In this document: piece by piece, positions 33,438-38,720 of the stretch
How positions within the stretch are numbered: the stretch's first letter is position 1
How the letters are laid out: every line of letters starts with the position of its first letter
Source: Alistipes sp.
Lineage (GTDB): Bacteria; Bacteroidota; Bacteroidia; Bacteroidales; Rikenellaceae
Direction: 5' to 3'
DNA length: 38,870 nt
Assembly: GCA_017463615.1 (NCBI GenBank)
Contig: JAFTOU010000061.1
Location: 1-38,870 of the forward strand
Made by a program: the position numbers and the translations under genes
The notes under the pieces: model-generated
Told to the model about the DNA's origin: nothing
What the model saw: only the letters and a program-made list of their open reading frames with translations
Databases searched by the model: none

Positions 33438-33469
33438 TTTGGTTTTTACGCCGCAATTACCTATATTTG
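33438..33469 (+). promoter_or_regulatory. Promoter of the FMN riboswitch-receptor transcript
   Basis: TTTG (33438-33441) and TATATTTG (33462-33469), 20 bp apart. The predicted start near 33473 coincides with the 5' strand of riboswitch stem P1. Confidence 0.75.
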
Positions 33470-33474
33470 CATCA

Positions 33475-33658
33475 AGATTTCGGGGCGGGGTGCAACTCCC
33501 CACCGGCGGTGATAGTCCGCGACTCCTATAAGGGTTTGAAACACACAGCGTTAGGCTACAGGGTGTGGATCGGCAAGGTTTAAGTTATGCTAAGACTCTT
33601 ATAGGACTGAATCGGTGAAATTCCGATACCGACGGTATAGTCCGGATGGTAGAAGTCT
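33475..33658 (+). promoter_or_regulatory. FMN riboswitch (RFN element)
   Basis: The conserved RFN blocks are all present in order: GGGGCGGGGTGCAACTCCCC, ACCGGCGGTGAT, AGTCCGCGA, then ATCGGTGAAATTCCGATACC, GACGGTATAGTCCGGATGG and AGAAG. The basal stem P1 is AGATTTC with GAAGTCT (33475-33481 with 33652-33658, one G-U). A variable helix fills the middle. When FMN is bound the downstream terminator should form and shut off the receptor gene. Confidence 0.95.
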
Positions 33659-33709
33659 GAATATGGTGGCGCAGGACATACTATGTCTTGCCGTGCTATA
33701 TGGTATGCC

Positions 33710-33738
33710 CCGATATCGTAACTGATGTCGGATTTTTT
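33710..33738 (+). terminator. Riboswitch-controlled terminator
   Basis: CCGATATC pairs with GATGTCGG (one G-U, 6-nt loop), followed by ATTTTTT, 12 nt before the receptor ATG. A further stem (GCAGGACATA with TATGTCTTGC) lies between aptamer and terminator. Confidence 0.85.
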
Positions 33739-33749
33739 ATTTTTATGCT

Positions 33750-36700
33750 ATGCGCAAACTTTTTACAGTACTATTTTTCTCTCTCTTCGCCCTCACTGCA
33801 TGGGCACAGACAACAACATCTACAATCACGGGTCGGGTGGTAGACGGTAGCGAAAGACCCATCGTCGGCGCAACGATAGTCGCCCTACACACCCCTACGG
33901 GCACAACATACGGAGTGGCAACCAATGTTGATGGCCTCTACCGCATAGATGGCCTTAAGGTCGGTGGCGAGTACAGAGTAGAGTTCAGCTGCATAGGATA
34001 CAATACAGTTCGCCAGCAGGGCATCTACACCTCCTTGGGTCAGCCCCTTATGCTCAATGCCGTACTGCACGAGCAGCAGCAAGCTATTGACGAGCTTGTA
34101 GTCACCACTCGCAAGAGCAGCGACAACTACTCCACAACAGATATAGAGGTTCTACCGACGGTATCTCGCTCAATATACGACATCGCTCGTCTGAGTCCCT
34201 ACGCCGCCTCGCAGCAGGAGGGTGGCGTAAGCATTGGAGGTGCAAATAGCCGTTACAACAGCTTCTACATTGACGGCATAGTAAACAACGATATGTACGG
34301 ACTTACCGCCTCGGGTACCAACGGCGGACTGGCAAATGCAAACCCTATACCGTTGGATGCGCTGGAGCAGGTGCAGATTGTAACAGCGCCCTTTGATGTT
34401 CGCCAGAGTGGCTTTACGGGCGGAGGTATCAACGCCGTAACCAAGTCGGGCACAAACAACTTCACAGGCTCTGCATACGCCTACTACACCGACAATAATC
34501 TATATGGTAAGGGGGTAAACAACGCCCCATTAGCAAAGCTCAACACACTAACCTACGGAGCATCCCTGGGTGGTGCGATTGTCAAGAACAAGCTCTTCTA
34601 CTTTGTCAGCGCCGAGAACTCTACAGACTACTCCCCTTCGGCATACCATATTGGCGATGCGAACTGCAAGGTCTCTGAGGCTGATGCCAAGACTATTTCA
34701 GAGCACTTCAAGTCGCTCACTGGCTACGATGGTGGCGGTTATGGTAGCCGTGGCGTCAATCGCCAATCGACATCTATCCTTGCGCGTATAGACTGGAATA
34801 TATCCGACAAGCACAACCTCGCCGTGCGCTACCACTTCCTTGATGCGGGCAAAGAGGAGTATGTAAACTCCGCCTCTACCCTACTCTTCCACGGCGCGGG
34901 ATACACCTCTGTATGCAGTAGCCACTCCGTTATGGCAGAGCTTAGCTCGCGCCTGAGCAATGGCATATACAACTCGCTGCGCGTAGGTTACAGCCGCGTA
35001 ACAGACGGCAGAAAGACCGACGCCAGAACGCCATTTGTAACCATAGACCATATCCGCGAGGGCGAGAATACAGCCGTAAAGATTGGTACAGACGGTATGG
35101 CGCACAGCAACTCGCTGACGCAGAACTGCATAACTATCTCCGACCACCTGACCATCAACCGCGGGGCACACAACATCACCCTCGGCACTCACAACGAGAT
35201 TTTTGCAGCCAAAGTACTCTTTGTGTCAAACTCCTTAGGTTCGTACACCTACAACACCATGGCGGACTTCTTGGAGGGCAAGCCATCTATGTTCCAGCAG
35301 ACAATTCCTATCGGCGACGCATCTACACGCATACGCACCGCCCAGTTTGGTCTCTTTGCGCAGGATGAGGTGGCGCTGGGCGATGTTAAGCTGACATACG
35401 GACTTCGTGCCGACATCCCGACTATCTTCAACACTCCGCGCGAGAACAGCACCTTCAACAGTAGCGAGATTGCTCAGAATTACGGCGTTGCAACCAACAG
35501 CAAGCCTAAGACCCACATACTACTCTCCCCTCGCGTAGGGTTTGACTGGTATATCAACATCAACAACAGACTGCGTGGTGGCGTGGGTATCTTCACAGGC
35601 AGAATACCATTCGTATGGATTACCAACTGCTACTCCAACACTGGTATGACCCAGATGGGCTATACGCTCTATGGCGATAATATTCCTCCATTTGGCGTCT
35701 CCCCTTCAGGCACTGCGGGCACAAGTGCAAACCCGGTAATATATGTTGCTGACCGCAAGTTCCGTATGCCACAGACTGCAAAGGCAAACCTCGCCTTTGA
35801 GAGCCATATCGGCAAGGGTTGGAACATAACCCTTGAGGGTGTCTATGCAAAGATGCTCAACGACATCTCTATCCGCAACCTTGTGGCGCAGGATAACGGG
35901 GCGAAGCTCTATGCTGTAAATAGCGACCTTGCAAACAGCAACAACACCACCGTATTCTACGACTCAAGCGCCAAGAAGCAGTTCTCGTCTGTCTACTACC
36001 TTGAGAACGAGAGCCGTGGCTACTCATACAACCTCTCTGCCCTCATTGAGAAGCAGTTTACCTTCGGTCTGCAGCTCTCGGCAGCATATACATTCTCGCA
36101 GAGCTACACCGTAAACGATGGCGTATCATCCTCAGCACCAAGCATTTGGGGCAAGAGCTACGCAACCGTTTCTAACAGCAAGCAGCTGACCCATTCGGTA
36201 TTTGAGACTCCGCATAAGGTTACCCTGCAGGCGGTATTCTCTCGCCGTTATGGCTCTATCTTCGGCTCTACCGTATCGCTTATCTATCAGGGCTACTCGG
36301 GTATGCGCTACAGCCCTACATACTACAAGAATGGCGTTGATGTCAATGGCGACACCTACCGCGGAAATACAACAATCTACATCCCTACAGAGGCTGAGCT
36401 CGCGGCTATGAACTTTGAGAGCGCCGAGCAGCGCACAGCCTTTGACGCCTACATTAACAACCACAACGCACTGCGCAATAACCGTGGCAAGTATGCCGAG
36501 CGCAACTGCCTTATAGCGCCTTTTGAGCACCATATAGACCTGCACTTTGCTCAGGACTTCTACTTCAGCCGTAACAACTCGCGCAAGGTGCAGATTACAC
36601 TTGATATTATGAATCTTGGCAACCTATTCAACCGCAACTGGGGCGCATCCTACTTCCTTGACGACTGGAAGCTCTCGCCTGTAGAGGTTGTTTCGCTTGC

Positions 36701-36815
36701 AGACGATGGCAATGGCAACAAGACCCCGACCTACCGCTTTGTAGGTGGCGAGGTGTCGCGCAACGACCTGCTCTCGCGCTGGCGTATGCAACTGGGTGTA
36801 AGGGTTGTATTCTAA
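33750..36815 (+). CDS. TonB-dependent receptor, Oar-like, under an FMN riboswitch
   Basis: A 1021-residue outer-membrane protein. It has a Sec signal (MRKLFTVLFFSLFALTAWAQ), a carboxypeptidase-regulatory-like beta domain (about 24-105; ITGRVVDGSERPIVGATIVA), a plug domain (about 110-235; GGANSRYNSFYIDGIVNNDM, then GINAVTKSGTNNFTGSAYAY) and a long beta-barrel ending in the C-terminal Phe expected for outer-membrane proteins (LGVRVVF). This is the Oar/TonB carboxypeptidase-like class, energised by TonB-ExbBD. No SusD partner follows. Control by an FMN riboswitch makes riboflavin, FMN or FAD the likeliest cargo; that is an inference. A HAD phosphatase gene follows after 13 nt. Confidence 0.92.
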   Translation: MRKLFTVLFFSLFALTAWAQTTTSTITGRVVDGSERPIVGATIVALHTPTGTTYGVATNVDGLYRIDGLKVGGEYRVEFSCIGYNTVRQQGIYTSLGQPLMLNAVLHEQQQAIDELVVTTRKSSDNYSTTDIEVLPTVSRSIYDIARLSPYAASQQEGGVSIGGANSRYNSFYIDGIVNNDMYGLTASGTNGGLANANPIPLDALEQVQIVTAPFDVRQSGFTGGGINAVTKSGTNNFTGSAYAYYTDNNLYGKGVNNAPLAKLNTLTYGASLGGAIVKNKLFYFVSAENSTDYSPSAYHIGDANCKVSEADAKTISEHFKSLTGYDGGGYGSRGVNRQSTSILARIDWNISDKHNLAVRYHFLDAGKEEYVNSASTLLFHGAGYTSVCSSHSVMAELSSRLSNGIYNSLRVGYSRVTDGRKTDARTPFVTIDHIREGENTAVKIGTDGMAHSNSLTQNCITISDHLTINRGAHNITLGTHNEIFAAKVLFVSNSLGSYTYNTMADFLEGKPSMFQQTIPIGDASTRIRTAQFGLFAQDEVALGDVKLTYGLRADIPTIFNTPRENSTFNSSEIAQNYGVATNSKPKTHILLSPRVGFDWYININNRLRGGVGIFTGRIPFVWITNCYSNTGMTQMGYTLYGDNIPPFGVSPSGTAGTSANPVIYVADRKFRMPQTAKANLAFESHIGKGWNITLEGVYAKMLNDISIRNLVAQDNGAKLYAVNSDLANSNNTTVFYDSSAKKQFSSVYYLENESRGYSYNLSALIEKQFTFGLQLSAAYTFSQSYTVNDGVSSSAPSIWGKSYATVSNSKQLTHSVFETPHKVTLQAVFSRRYGSIFGSTVSLIYQGYSGMRYSPTYYKNGVDVNGDTYRGNTTIYIPTEAELAAMNFESAEQRTAFDAYINNHNALRNNRGKYAERNCLIAPFEHHIDLHFAQDFYFSRNNSRKVQITLDIMNLGNLFNRNWGASYFLDDWKLSPVEVVSLADDGNGNKTPTYRFVGGEVSRNDLLSRWRMQLGVRVVF

Positions 36816-36828
36816 CGCATACTTAACT

Positions 36829-37419
36829 ATGAAAAATATTGTTTTTGACCTTGCAGGAGTGGTCTTTGCTCGCAATGTAGCGCGCTGTCCGCAGAGCCTT
36901 ATGGACTACTTCTACTTTATCAACTCGGGCGAAGCGATGCCTGAGTTTTGGAACGACTACGACCGTGGCACGCGAGATATTGACTCCGTAGCTGAGTGCT
37001 TAGCTGCCTTTCGTGGCTCCGACTTTGAGACAGCTAAGAGTATGATGCTCAGCGCCATAACCTACCAGGAGCAGGTTGTCCCTACTGCCGAACTTATTGC
37101 CGAGCTAAAGCAGGCGGGCTATAGGCTCTTTGTGCTCTCCAATATGTCTAAGGAGTATATCGCCTACCTGCGCCGTATGGATGTCTACCGCCACTTTGAG
37201 GGCGAGATAATCTCCTGCGAAACGGGGCTGATAAAGCCCGAGAAGGCTATCTACGAGCTACTTCTGCAGCGTTACTCGCTCGACCCGTCGCAGACTATAT
37301 TTATTGACGACCGTGCCGAGAATGTAGCAGCAGCGGCCGAGGTTGGCATCACTCCATTTCACTTTGACCGCAACAATCCTGAGAAAAGTTGCGAGCAGTT
37401 GCGTGATTTATTAAAATAA
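36829..37419 (+). CDS. HAD superfamily phosphatase (YihX-like)
   Basis: A 196-residue cytoplasmic hydrolase of HAD subfamily IA. Motif I is FDLAGVVFA with nucleophile Asp6; the second acidic residue of the usual DxD is Ala, as it is Gly in YihX, a working glucose-1-phosphate phosphatase. Motif II is VLSNMS, motif III the Lys of LIKPEKAIY, and motif IV FIDDRAENV. A helical cap lies at about residues 15-80. The ATG at 36829 is used, because it begins the family strand; an in-frame ATG at 36805 overlaps the receptor gene. It follows the receptor by 13 nt and so should be under the same riboswitch. A flavin or flavin-precursor phosphatase role is an untested possibility. Confidence 0.85.
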   Translation: MKNIVFDLAGVVFARNVARCPQSLMDYFYFINSGEAMPEFWNDYDRGTRDIDSVAECLAAFRGSDFETAKSMMLSAITYQEQVVPTAELIAELKQAGYRLFVLSNMSKEYIAYLRRMDVYRHFEGEIISCETGLIKPEKAIYELLLQRYSLDPSQTIFIDDRAENVAAAAEVGITPFHFDRNNPEKSCEQLRDLLK

Positions 37420-37436: not shown

Positions 37437-38720
37437 ATGGAAGAGATTTTTGACAATATCCCCGAGCAGCCGTCGTACGATGTTATCGTCATCGGCGCAG
37501 GTGCTGCAGGTATGATGGCGGCAGGTACTGCTGCACGCAATGGAGCTAAGGTGCTCCTGCTTGAGAAGATGGAGAAACCCGCACGAAAGGTTCGTATTAC
37601 GGGTAAGGGTCGTTGCAACCTTACAAACGAGCGTGGCGAGGAGTACTATGAGCAGAATATCCGCACCAACTACGACTTTGTCCGCGTGGCATACTCCGAG
37701 TTCAACAATCGCGCAACGATGCGCTTCTTTGAGCGTATGGGTGTGAAACTCAAGACCGAGCGTGGCGACCGCGTCTTTCCCGAGAGTGGCAAGGCTGCCG
37801 ATATTGCCAATGCGCTGGAGTTCTACTGCCGCGACTACGATGTAGATATTCGCTGCCACACCCGCGTGTCGGGCATCCTTACGCTGGGCAACAAGGTTAT
37901 GGGTGTCAAGTACTTCAACAAGCGAGGCTTTGAGCGTCGTATAGAGGCACCAAATGTCATCATAGCTACGGGAGGTATCTCCTACCCTCGCACCGGTTCT
38001 ACGGGCGATGGCTATCTATTTGCCGATGCACTGGGGCATAGCATTGAGGATGTGCGTCCTTCACTCACTGCTCTTGTTACATCCCATTCGCAGGCTCAGT
38101 ATATCCAGAATGTTCTGCTGCGCAACACCACCGTACGACTTGTCGTAGATGGTACTGTTGTCGGCGAGGAGTTTGGCGAGGTCAGCTTCTCCGACCGAGG
38201 CATTGAGGGCGCTGCAACGCTGCGTCTGAGCCGCGATGCGGTAGATGCGCTGACAGAGGAGAAGAGTGTTAAGTTGGAGCTTGACCTCAAGCCAGCACTT
38301 GACGAGGAGATTCTCCGCGCCCGCATACAGCGCGAGGTTGCCGAGATGGGTCCCGAGGAGTTCTTTGCCGAGCTTGTGCGTCGCCTTGTGCCAAAGCCGC
38401 TGGTAGTACCTATCTGCAAGGAGCTTGATGTCCACTCTCGCCTCTACATCAGCAAGGTCAGCGACAAGGAGTTTGAGCGACTTATCAAGGTACTCAAGAG
38501 CTGGTCGTTCCCGATATCAGACTACGCATCGTTTGACTACGCTATCGTTACTGCAGGTGGCGTGAAGTGTGACGAGGTGAACGAGTACACTATGGAGTCT
38601 AAGCTCATCAAGGGTCTCTACTTCGCGGGCGAAGTACTTGATATTGACGCAAATACGGGTGGTTACAACCTCCAGATTGCATTCTCCACAGGTCATCTGG
38701 CAGGTCTGCTAAAGAAGTAG
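37437..38720 (+). CDS. BaiN/RdsA-type NAD(P)/FAD-dependent oxidoreductase
   Basis: A 427-residue flavoprotein of the HI0933-like group. The dinucleotide-binding fold DVIVIGAGAAGMMAAGTAAR starts at about residue 14. GRCNLTN and IIATGGISYPRTGSTGDGY are signature motifs, and the C-terminal GLYFAGEVLDIDANTGGYN is the second FAD motif. Related enzymes reduce ring double bonds (BaiN in bile acid 7-dehydroxylation); the substrate of this one is unknown. It starts 17 nt after the HAD gene and may be read from the riboswitch transcript as well as from its own promoter. A short N-terminal extension (MEEIFDNIPEQPSY) precedes the fold. Confidence 0.88.
   Translation: MEEIFDNIPEQPSYDVIVIGAGAAGMMAAGTAARNGAKVLLLEKMEKPARKVRITGKGRCNLTNERGEEYYEQNIRTNYDFVRVAYSEFNNRATMRFFERMGVKLKTERGDRVFPESGKAADIANALEFYCRDYDVDIRCHTRVSGILTLGNKVMGVKYFNKRGFERRIEAPNVIIATGGISYPRTGSTGDGYLFADALGHSIEDVRPSLTALVTSHSQAQYIQNVLLRNTTVRLVVDGTVVGEEFGEVSFSDRGIEGAATLRLSRDAVDALTEEKSVKLELDLKPALDEEILRARIQREVAEMGPEEFFAELVRRLVPKPLVVPICKELDVHSRLYISKVSDKEFERLIKVLKSWSFPISDYASFDYAIVTAGGVKCDEVNEYTMESKLIKGLYFAGEVLDIDANTGGYNLQIAFSTGHLAGLLKK

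Follow-up and report, generated by a model that had tools for sequence, protein, structure and literature searches.

In a 38,870-nucleotide stretch of DNA from a gut bacterium, an Alistipes species (the window), an FMN riboswitch precedes the gene for a TonB-dependent outer-membrane receptor. Comparison of genomes makes it very likely that this FMN-off transcriptional riboswitch controls a receptor that would import flavins into an apparently riboflavin-auxotrophic bacterium. The cargo could be riboflavin, FMN, FAD or a flavin-bearing compound, and its uptake would be driven by TonB. The features of the locus are collected in Table 1.

Table 1. Features of the riboswitch-receptor locus, with positions in the window.
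Feature	Positions	Strand	Basis
Bacteroidetes-type promoter (TTTG 33438-33441, 20-nt spacer, TATATTTG 33462-33469)	33438..33469	+	Read from sequence
FMN riboswitch aptamer (RF00050), enlarged variable stem	33472..33661	+	103.8 bits, gathering score 66.2
Antiterminator strand: P1 5' strand plus neighbouring P2 bases, which can pair instead with the terminator 5' arm	33475..33487	+	Predicted duplex
Antiterminator strand overlapping terminator 5' arm	33706..33718	+	Predicted duplex; strands vary together across leaders
Intrinsic terminator (stem 33710-33731, U-tract 33733-33744)	33710..33744	+	Predicted hairpin; kept in 11 leaders
Candidate flavin importer: Oar-type TonB-dependent receptor of the outer membrane (1021 aa)	33750..36815	+	Pfam; clade support 100/100
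HAD-family hydrolase, 13 nt downstream of receptor	36829..37419	+	PF00702
HI0933-like FAD-binding flavoprotein	37437..38720	+	TIGR00275, PF03486

A first-pass annotation had proposed an FMN riboswitch upstream of the receptor, and an Infernal search with the Rfam model identified it well above the gathering score (E = 3.1e-23). The match spanned model positions 1-138 and was not cut off, indicating a full aptamer, and it was the sole FMN riboswitch match across the assembly of the source Alistipes-like genome. Nearly all of the aptamer helices were retained across 11 leaders. The promoter that had been placed 5' of P1 was recovered as a Bacteroidetes-type box, assigned by the Bacteroidetes promoter consensus, and not as a sigma-70-type promoter, for which a promoter scan of the leader gave no candidate. 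In 80 of 107 leaders, the motif TAnnTTTG began at most 25 nt upstream of the aptamer, compared with 2.2 expected from shuffles; a suitably spaced TTG or TTTG was found in only 34 of these 80.

The U-tract terminator that had been noted after the aptamer was also found. One terminator-like hairpin was detected against 0.4 expected from shuffles, its stem has eight pairs with a predicted pairing probability of at least 0.98, and it was nearly unchanged among 10 close relatives. Its 5' arm could alternatively be engaged by the P1 strand, in a duplex predicted at -18.9 kcal/mol. This competing pairing could be scored in 87 of the 107 leaders (20 could not be), and was Watson-Crick in 77, G-U in seven and mismatched in three, so that the strands were compatible in 84 of the 87. 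In 12 of 106 leaders, including those of the Oar-type loci L222, L223, L224 and L226, this pairing did not outperform shuffled sequences (z above -1). By prediction, the leader is an expression platform with mutually exclusive folds. We infer that, when FMN is plentiful, it would bind the aptamer, P1 would stay closed and the terminator would form ahead of the start codon. Under FMN scarcity, the terminator 5' arm would instead be bound by the 5' strand of P1/P2, permitting read-through into the receptor gene and the production of more receptor. The annotation had the receptor following these elements 12 nt later; the receptor does follow, but its start codon lies 5 nt after the U-tract and 88 nt after the aptamer.

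The encoded protein gave Pfam matches over cut-off to OMP_b-brl_4 (PF25183), CarboxypepD_reg (PF13620), CarbopepD_reg_2 (PF13715) and Plug (PF07715), in agreement with the proposed TonB-dependent receptor of the Oar type. By eye, its N-terminus resembles a signal peptide, and its last residue is F. No NCBIfam match was found, and a search of solved structures gave no match at E up to 0.01. The next two genes in the window encode a HAD-family hydrolase and an HI0933-like flavoprotein, consistent with the earlier observation that no riboflavin-synthesis gene stands behind the receptor. A relative of the hydrolase, which is possibly an FMN phosphatase, adjoins the receptor on either strand in 11 of 41 loci searched; the flavoprotein is probably just a neighbour.

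Loss of riboflavin synthesis was judged by two genes of the pathway, by ribB throughout and by ribH as well in the window's family (Rikenellaceae). Neither ribB nor ribH gave a match in the source genome (assembly 93% complete), and flavokinase (PF01687) was found in all 35 genomes tested, the source genome among them. With ribB and ribH absent and flavokinase kept, the host appears to be a riboflavin auxotroph by these marker genes. Among 200 Rikenellaceae genomes there were 20 FMN riboswitch sites above the cut-off, of which 19 precede the receptor and the remaining one precedes ribB. None of the 19 genomes with a riboswitch-receptor site had a match to ribB. Weak ribH-like matches were seen in three of the 19 (G091, G139 and G148), two of which, together with their neighbours, just pass the curated cut-off; further weak matches of this kind came from G095 and, at 34.8 bits and over cut-off, from G089.

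In 40 chosen Rikenellaceae genomes, a receptor orthologue (>800 bits) was present in 23, none of which carried ribB, and 15 of the 17 genomes without the orthologue carried ribB (Fisher 3e-9, relatedness ignored). Two genomes, G104 and G108, lacked ribB, riboswitch and orthologue, indicating that auxotrophs can manage without the latter two. The annotation had held that orthologues lacking the riboswitch and clustering with receptors of a different known cargo would speak against its reading, and the lack of the riboswitch was seen in part. Within the orthologue clade (tree support 100/100), five of 29 members lack it, with no degenerate copy matched before these five at E up to 1. The four of these whose genomes were searched for ribB (all but L016) came from genomes without ribB. 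No FMN riboswitch was detected near more distant Oar relatives in 62 loci (L018-L029, L031-L080).

The survey was extended to 393 Bacteroidales genomes, in which 83 FMN riboswitch sites were found besides that of the window. These precede ribD (32), ribB (13), a family of TonB receptors of ~860 aa (36) and one probable Oar-type receptor, and one lies at an unclassifiable contig end. The pairing is kept within Rikenellaceae and recurs with another receptor family across the order. At one ~860-aa receptor locus (L203), a reading frame is open through the aptamer. Receptor-type sites are spread over 17 families. Many of the genomes are incomplete assemblies, and with this caveat ribB was absent from 37 of 38 receptor-linked genomes (36 of 37 leaving out the tentative G346), from none of 44 rib-linked genomes (G413 left out) and from 40 of 310 genomes without an above-cut-off riboswitch. 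In the lone receptor-linked genome with ribB, the first receptor is broken and the rib operon is intact. Three families (f9, f77 and f117) contain both receptor- and rib-type sites, and their ribB state matches the type of site except in G413. The association of receptor linkage with ribB absence supports the suggestion that flavins may be imported across the outer membrane. Elsewhere in the phylum, 395 genomes gave 27 further sites above the cut-off, none of them of the receptor type; ribB follows 24 of these and ribD three.

With rib genes so commonly under FMN riboswitches in the order, the element in the window could be a relic of a lost rib operon with an incidental new neighbour. We regard this as highly improbable, since relatives whose receptors are as little as about 46-47% identical still have the aptamer and promoter box, most of them also keep the terminator and its competing strand (exceptions L222-L224 and L226), and a receptor follows in 19 of 20 sites in the family and 37 of 83 in the order. 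The receptor could also import another nutrient, the riboswitch reporting redox or flavin state and not the receptor's own cargo. Flavin is a candidate cargo, and the NCBIfam, solved-structure and other searches for relatives gave none of known cargo. This explanation is nevertheless improbable, as two receptor families with only weak alignment to each other (hhalign probability 75%) stand behind the riboswitch, and the near-uniform absence of ribB would be unexpected for a general redox read-out.

Oar-type receptors have been linked to peptides or proteins. The large barrel with its CarboxypepD_reg domain would suit import of peptide- or protein-bound flavin, such as flavoprotein fragments, in place of free flavin. 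At some ~860-aa loci, a second receptor comes next (confirmed by comparison), followed by a nucleotide pyrophosphatase gene, an arrangement that fits the needs of FAD salvage. This gene lies behind the receptor or receptors in nine genomes and suits FAD better than bound flavin, in a search that did not extend to proteases; import of bound flavin is accordingly unlikely, if somewhat less so than import of another nutrient. The Alistipes loci showed no nucleotide pyrophosphatase next to the receptor.

RibU, PnuX, ImpX, RibN, RfnT, RibZ and RibXY are inner-membrane carriers, and no inner-membrane riboflavin carrier was found here. A PnuC-family gene (PF04973) was considered as a PnuX-type carrier and rejected, as the source copy is followed by thiamin pyrophosphokinase (Pfam), pointing to thiamine; a relative (L307) has a TPP riboswitch just upstream. 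In the 40 Rikenellaceae genomes, the gene was present in 25 of 25 lacking ribB compared to eight of 15 bearing it (Fisher 0.0003), an enrichment not counted as support because its neighbours point to thiamine. Five f6 genomes have a DHA2-like MFS gene downstream (NCBIfam match TIGR00711, below the family cut-off), which was not counted in the operon because an opposite-strand ORF separates it from the receptor.

Among the closest parallels is BT2390 (OMthi) of Bacteroides thetaiotaomicron, a TonB-dependent receptor behind a TPP riboswitch, whose deletion together with the synthesis operon is described as raising the thiamine needed for growth (PMC5613172). Both systems place a vitamin-cofactor riboswitch before an outer-membrane TonB-dependent receptor in Bacteroidetes. 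They differ in riboswitch class and vitamin, the OMthi host makes thiamine, and the role of OMthi was tested by deletions whereas that of the FMN-linked receptor is proposed here from genome comparison. Cobalamin riboswitches before BtuB or TonB-dependent receptors, described in Caldithrix (PMC5317091) and Gluconobacter (PMC5756330), likewise put a cofactor sensor before an outer-membrane receptor, a likeness of layout, but B12 is a much larger cargo. FMN riboswitches are also described before riboflavin transporter genes (PMC3766115), and the carriers named above are the riboflavin transporters listed in PMC6593275; those too are uptake genes, but for inner-membrane carriers and not for an outer-membrane receptor. 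The main texts of these two papers do not mention TonB and their transporter lists name no outer-membrane receptor, and the former, a survey from 2013, records no such riboswitch for Bacteroidaceae. The ribD and ribB riboswitches of other Bacteroidales and Bacteroidota share this aptamer, and those of Bacteroidales also share the promoter box and, for the most part, the terminator layout. They control synthesis; in the present case the position of the synthesis genes is occupied by a receptor, in genomes that lack ribB. No description of the FMN riboswitch-TonB receptor pairing was found in open-licence PMC texts, and the recurrent pairings point to an unreported route of flavin import.

More broadly, we think it somewhat probable that Bacteroidales that have lost riboflavin synthesis share a dedicated, FMN-riboswitch-controlled system of outer-membrane flavin salvage, involving at least two weakly related receptor families (Oar-type of ~1020 aa, and ~860 aa) and, in some lineages, tandem receptors with a nucleotide pyrophosphatase for extracytoplasmic cleavage of FAD, the riboswitch moving from the synthesis operon to the receptor upon pathway loss. 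Riboflavin is small enough to pass porins, and its diffusion through them is reported in E. coli (PMC12319065). If a receptor is indeed under FMN control in these apparent auxotrophs, vitamin B2 would join B12 and B1 as vitamins imported by TonB-driven receptors, the riboswitch-receptor pairing would serve as a genome marker of B2 dependence, and the system would reveal a means by which Bacteroidales of the gut and of other communities compete for flavins.

The first-pass annotation had placed an FMN riboswitch ahead of an Oar-type TonB-dependent receptor gene, and the observation was right: the Rfam FMN model matched in full, above its gathering score, with the receptor gene next. The riboswitch was the single match in the window's genome (2.38 Mb, 67 contigs, 93% complete). 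The receptor, whose domains mark it as Oar-type, had its closest relatives in Alistipes and Rikenellaceae assemblies, many of them labelled as ruminant gut.

Features of the riboswitch-receptor locus in the window
Feature	Position	Strand	Remarks
Bacteroidetes-type promoter box TATATTTG	33462-33469		directly 5' of P1; TTTG 20 nt farther upstream
FMN riboswitch aptamer	33472-33661	+	Rfam FMN model, 103.8 bits (gathering score 66.2), whole model covered
Terminator-like hairpin and U-tract	33710-33731 (hairpin)		U-tract ends 5 nt before receptor start codon
Receptor gene	33750-36815	+	1021 residues; CarboxypepD_reg, Plug and OMP_b-brl_4 domains (Pfam)
HAD hydrolase gene	36829-37419		after receptor
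HI0933-like flavoprotein gene	37437-38720		after HAD hydrolase

In 80 of 107 leaders the motif TAnnTTTG fell within the 25 nt that precede the aptamer (2.2 expected from shuffles), and 34 of these 80 also carried an upstream TTG or TTTG. The terminator-like hairpin was conserved across 10 close relatives, and its 5' arm could instead base-pair with P1/P2 on their 5' side (33706-33718 against 33475-33487; predicted -18.9 kcal/mol). At one informative position the competing strands covaried (A-U 46, G-C 31, G-U 7, mismatches 3) in the 87 of 107 leaders scored by a simple pattern, the 20 outside the pattern being left out; since the leaders share ancestry, these counts are not independent events. 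The best competing pairing was no better than shuffles (z above -1) in 12 of 106 leaders, four of them of the Oar type (L222, L223, L224 and L226). Terminator/antiterminator competition of this kind is known for FMN riboswitches. From the layout, bound FMN would keep P1 closed and free the terminator, and an antiterminator would form when FMN is absent.

The family survey (RIKENELLACEAE) detected an above-cut-off FMN riboswitch in 20 of 200 Rikenellaceae genomes, and the receptor gene followed on the same strand in 19 of them, with ribB next in the other (G067). Three profile or receptor searches were run on 40 genomes, comprising these 20 and 20 without a site, the latter taken as the first in the survey listing and not randomly drawn. 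No match to ribB (PF00926) was found in any of the 19 receptor-type genomes, the window's included, or to ribH (PF00885) in 16 of the 19. Partial ribH matches of 22 to 26 bits occurred in G091, G139 and G148 (two barely over the cut-off, counting neighbours), and other ribH-like matches in G089 (34.8 bits) and G095 (20 bits). Receptor orthologues, defined by matches above 800 bits (next best, 452 bits), were present in 23 of the 40 genomes and were mutually exclusive with ribB, which was found in none of these 23, while none of the 15 ribB genomes had an orthologue. Two genomes of the set, the Alistipes-like G104 and G108, had neither; they were also without a ribH match or an above-cut-off riboswitch, yet kept flavokinase. 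Flavokinase was present in all 35 genomes searched, 25 of them from the 40-genome set. In a tree of 45 receptors, 29 orthologues formed one clade (support 100/100), and the riboswitch was found at 24 and not at the other five.

Two side observations concern individual loci. At L103 (G102:C3, 88624-88952), two weak FMN matches of 39 and 30 bits, probably halves of a single aptamer split by an insertion, precede a ribD-ribE-ribBA-ribH operon. At L296, L297 and L305 (genomes G137, G138 and G182), the FMN-linked receptor adjoins a second TonB-dependent receptor and a PnuC-family gene (at L297 the receptor is judged from its start alone); this layout resembles the OMthi-PnuT thiamine uptake pair and suggests a vitamin-uptake neighbourhood.

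Among 393 Bacteroidales genomes, 82 carried 83 above-cut-off sites, excluding the window's own. The first downstream gene was ribD at 32, ribB at 13, a second TonB receptor family of ~860 residues at 36 and a probable Oar-type receptor at one; one site (L218) lay at a contig end. The Oar-type assignment (L163, genome G346) comes from 168 residues before the contig end (34% identity over 155 residues, CarboxypepD_reg domains only). The ~860-residue group was delimited by sequence clustering, with L203 added through tblastn; a Plug domain was present in the six members submitted to Pfam, eight selected members were 36-53% identical when compared with the first among them, and the hhalign probability against the Oar type was only 75%.

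The ribB profile was unmatched in 37 of 38 receptor-linked genomes (35 of 36 of the ~860-residue type, G346 and the window's genome) versus 40 of 310 genomes without an above-cut-off site, the latter obtained by subtraction from 77 of 393 (Fisher's test, 4e-27, relatedness ignored). All 45 rib-linked genomes had ribB. Receptor-type sites were spread over 17 families, three of which (f9, f77 and f117) contained both site types, with matching ribB state except in G413. One of the two sites in G413 lies on an intact ribD-ribE-ribBA-ribH operon, and the other (L206, L337; G413:C51) precedes a broken ~860-residue receptor (frame changed, middle lacking), with an intact paralogue and a pyrophosphatase behind it. 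In the wider phylum, all 27 other sites preceded rib genes (ribB 24, ribD 3).

At six loci of the ~860-residue type the first receptor gene had an Oar-type gene behind it in the same orientation (31-39% identity to the window receptor, gaps of 145 to 1085 nt), and a second receptor akin to the ~860-residue family was found in five others (31-41% identity). Longer downstream DNA was examined for 20 chosen loci. Type I phosphodiesterase/nucleotide pyrophosphatases can cut FAD to FMN and AMP. Such a protein was encoded downstream in nine genomes, matching over 386-406 residues in eight and over 164 in G301, and the four submitted to Pfam matched PF01663 at 285-298 bits. One matched solved ENPP1, ENPP2, ENPP3 and further members of the family equally, so sequence does not fix the substrate. 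The Alistipes loci examined, some of them cut short, yielded no pyrophosphatase relative. In G324, the receptor is followed after 23 nt by a nucleoside-permease-like carrier. Separately, a 471-residue protein lies 17-37 nt downstream of the FMN-linked receptor in three f6 genomes (L151, L160 and L162), the L160 copy having no Pfam or NCBIfam match, and in L021 (Tannerellaceae) a pyrophosphatase relative (39% over 268 residues) comes after an Oar-type receptor that has no FMN riboswitch close by.

Full-text searches of open-licence PMC papers, which take in only a minority of subscription journals and no bioRxiv preprints, did not find the pairing. In the portions of each source that were consulted, FMN regulons are reported as absent from Bacteroidaceae and TonB is unmentioned (PMC3766115), a riboflavin-transporter paper has no mention of TonB or the outer membrane (PMC4418817), the transporters listed are RibU, PnuX, ImpX, RibN, RfnT, RibZ and RibXY (PMC6593275), and riboflavin is reported to diffuse through porins in E. 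coli (PMC12319065); the portions of PMC11475020, PMC12405394, PMC13209645, PMC6281302, PMC6041382, PMC10409787, PMC5816637, PMC5756330 and PMC545781 likewise lack the pairing.

The further proposal, that the receptor imports flavins, is well supported by genome comparison, through the loss of ribB and the recurrence across the order. Our confidence in it fell by a barely perceptible amount on account of the ribH-like matches and of those leaders that lack a clear pairing. Vitamin receptors under riboswitches are already known for B12 and B1; what is new is that this logic would extend to flavins, and that it recurs in Bacteroidales.
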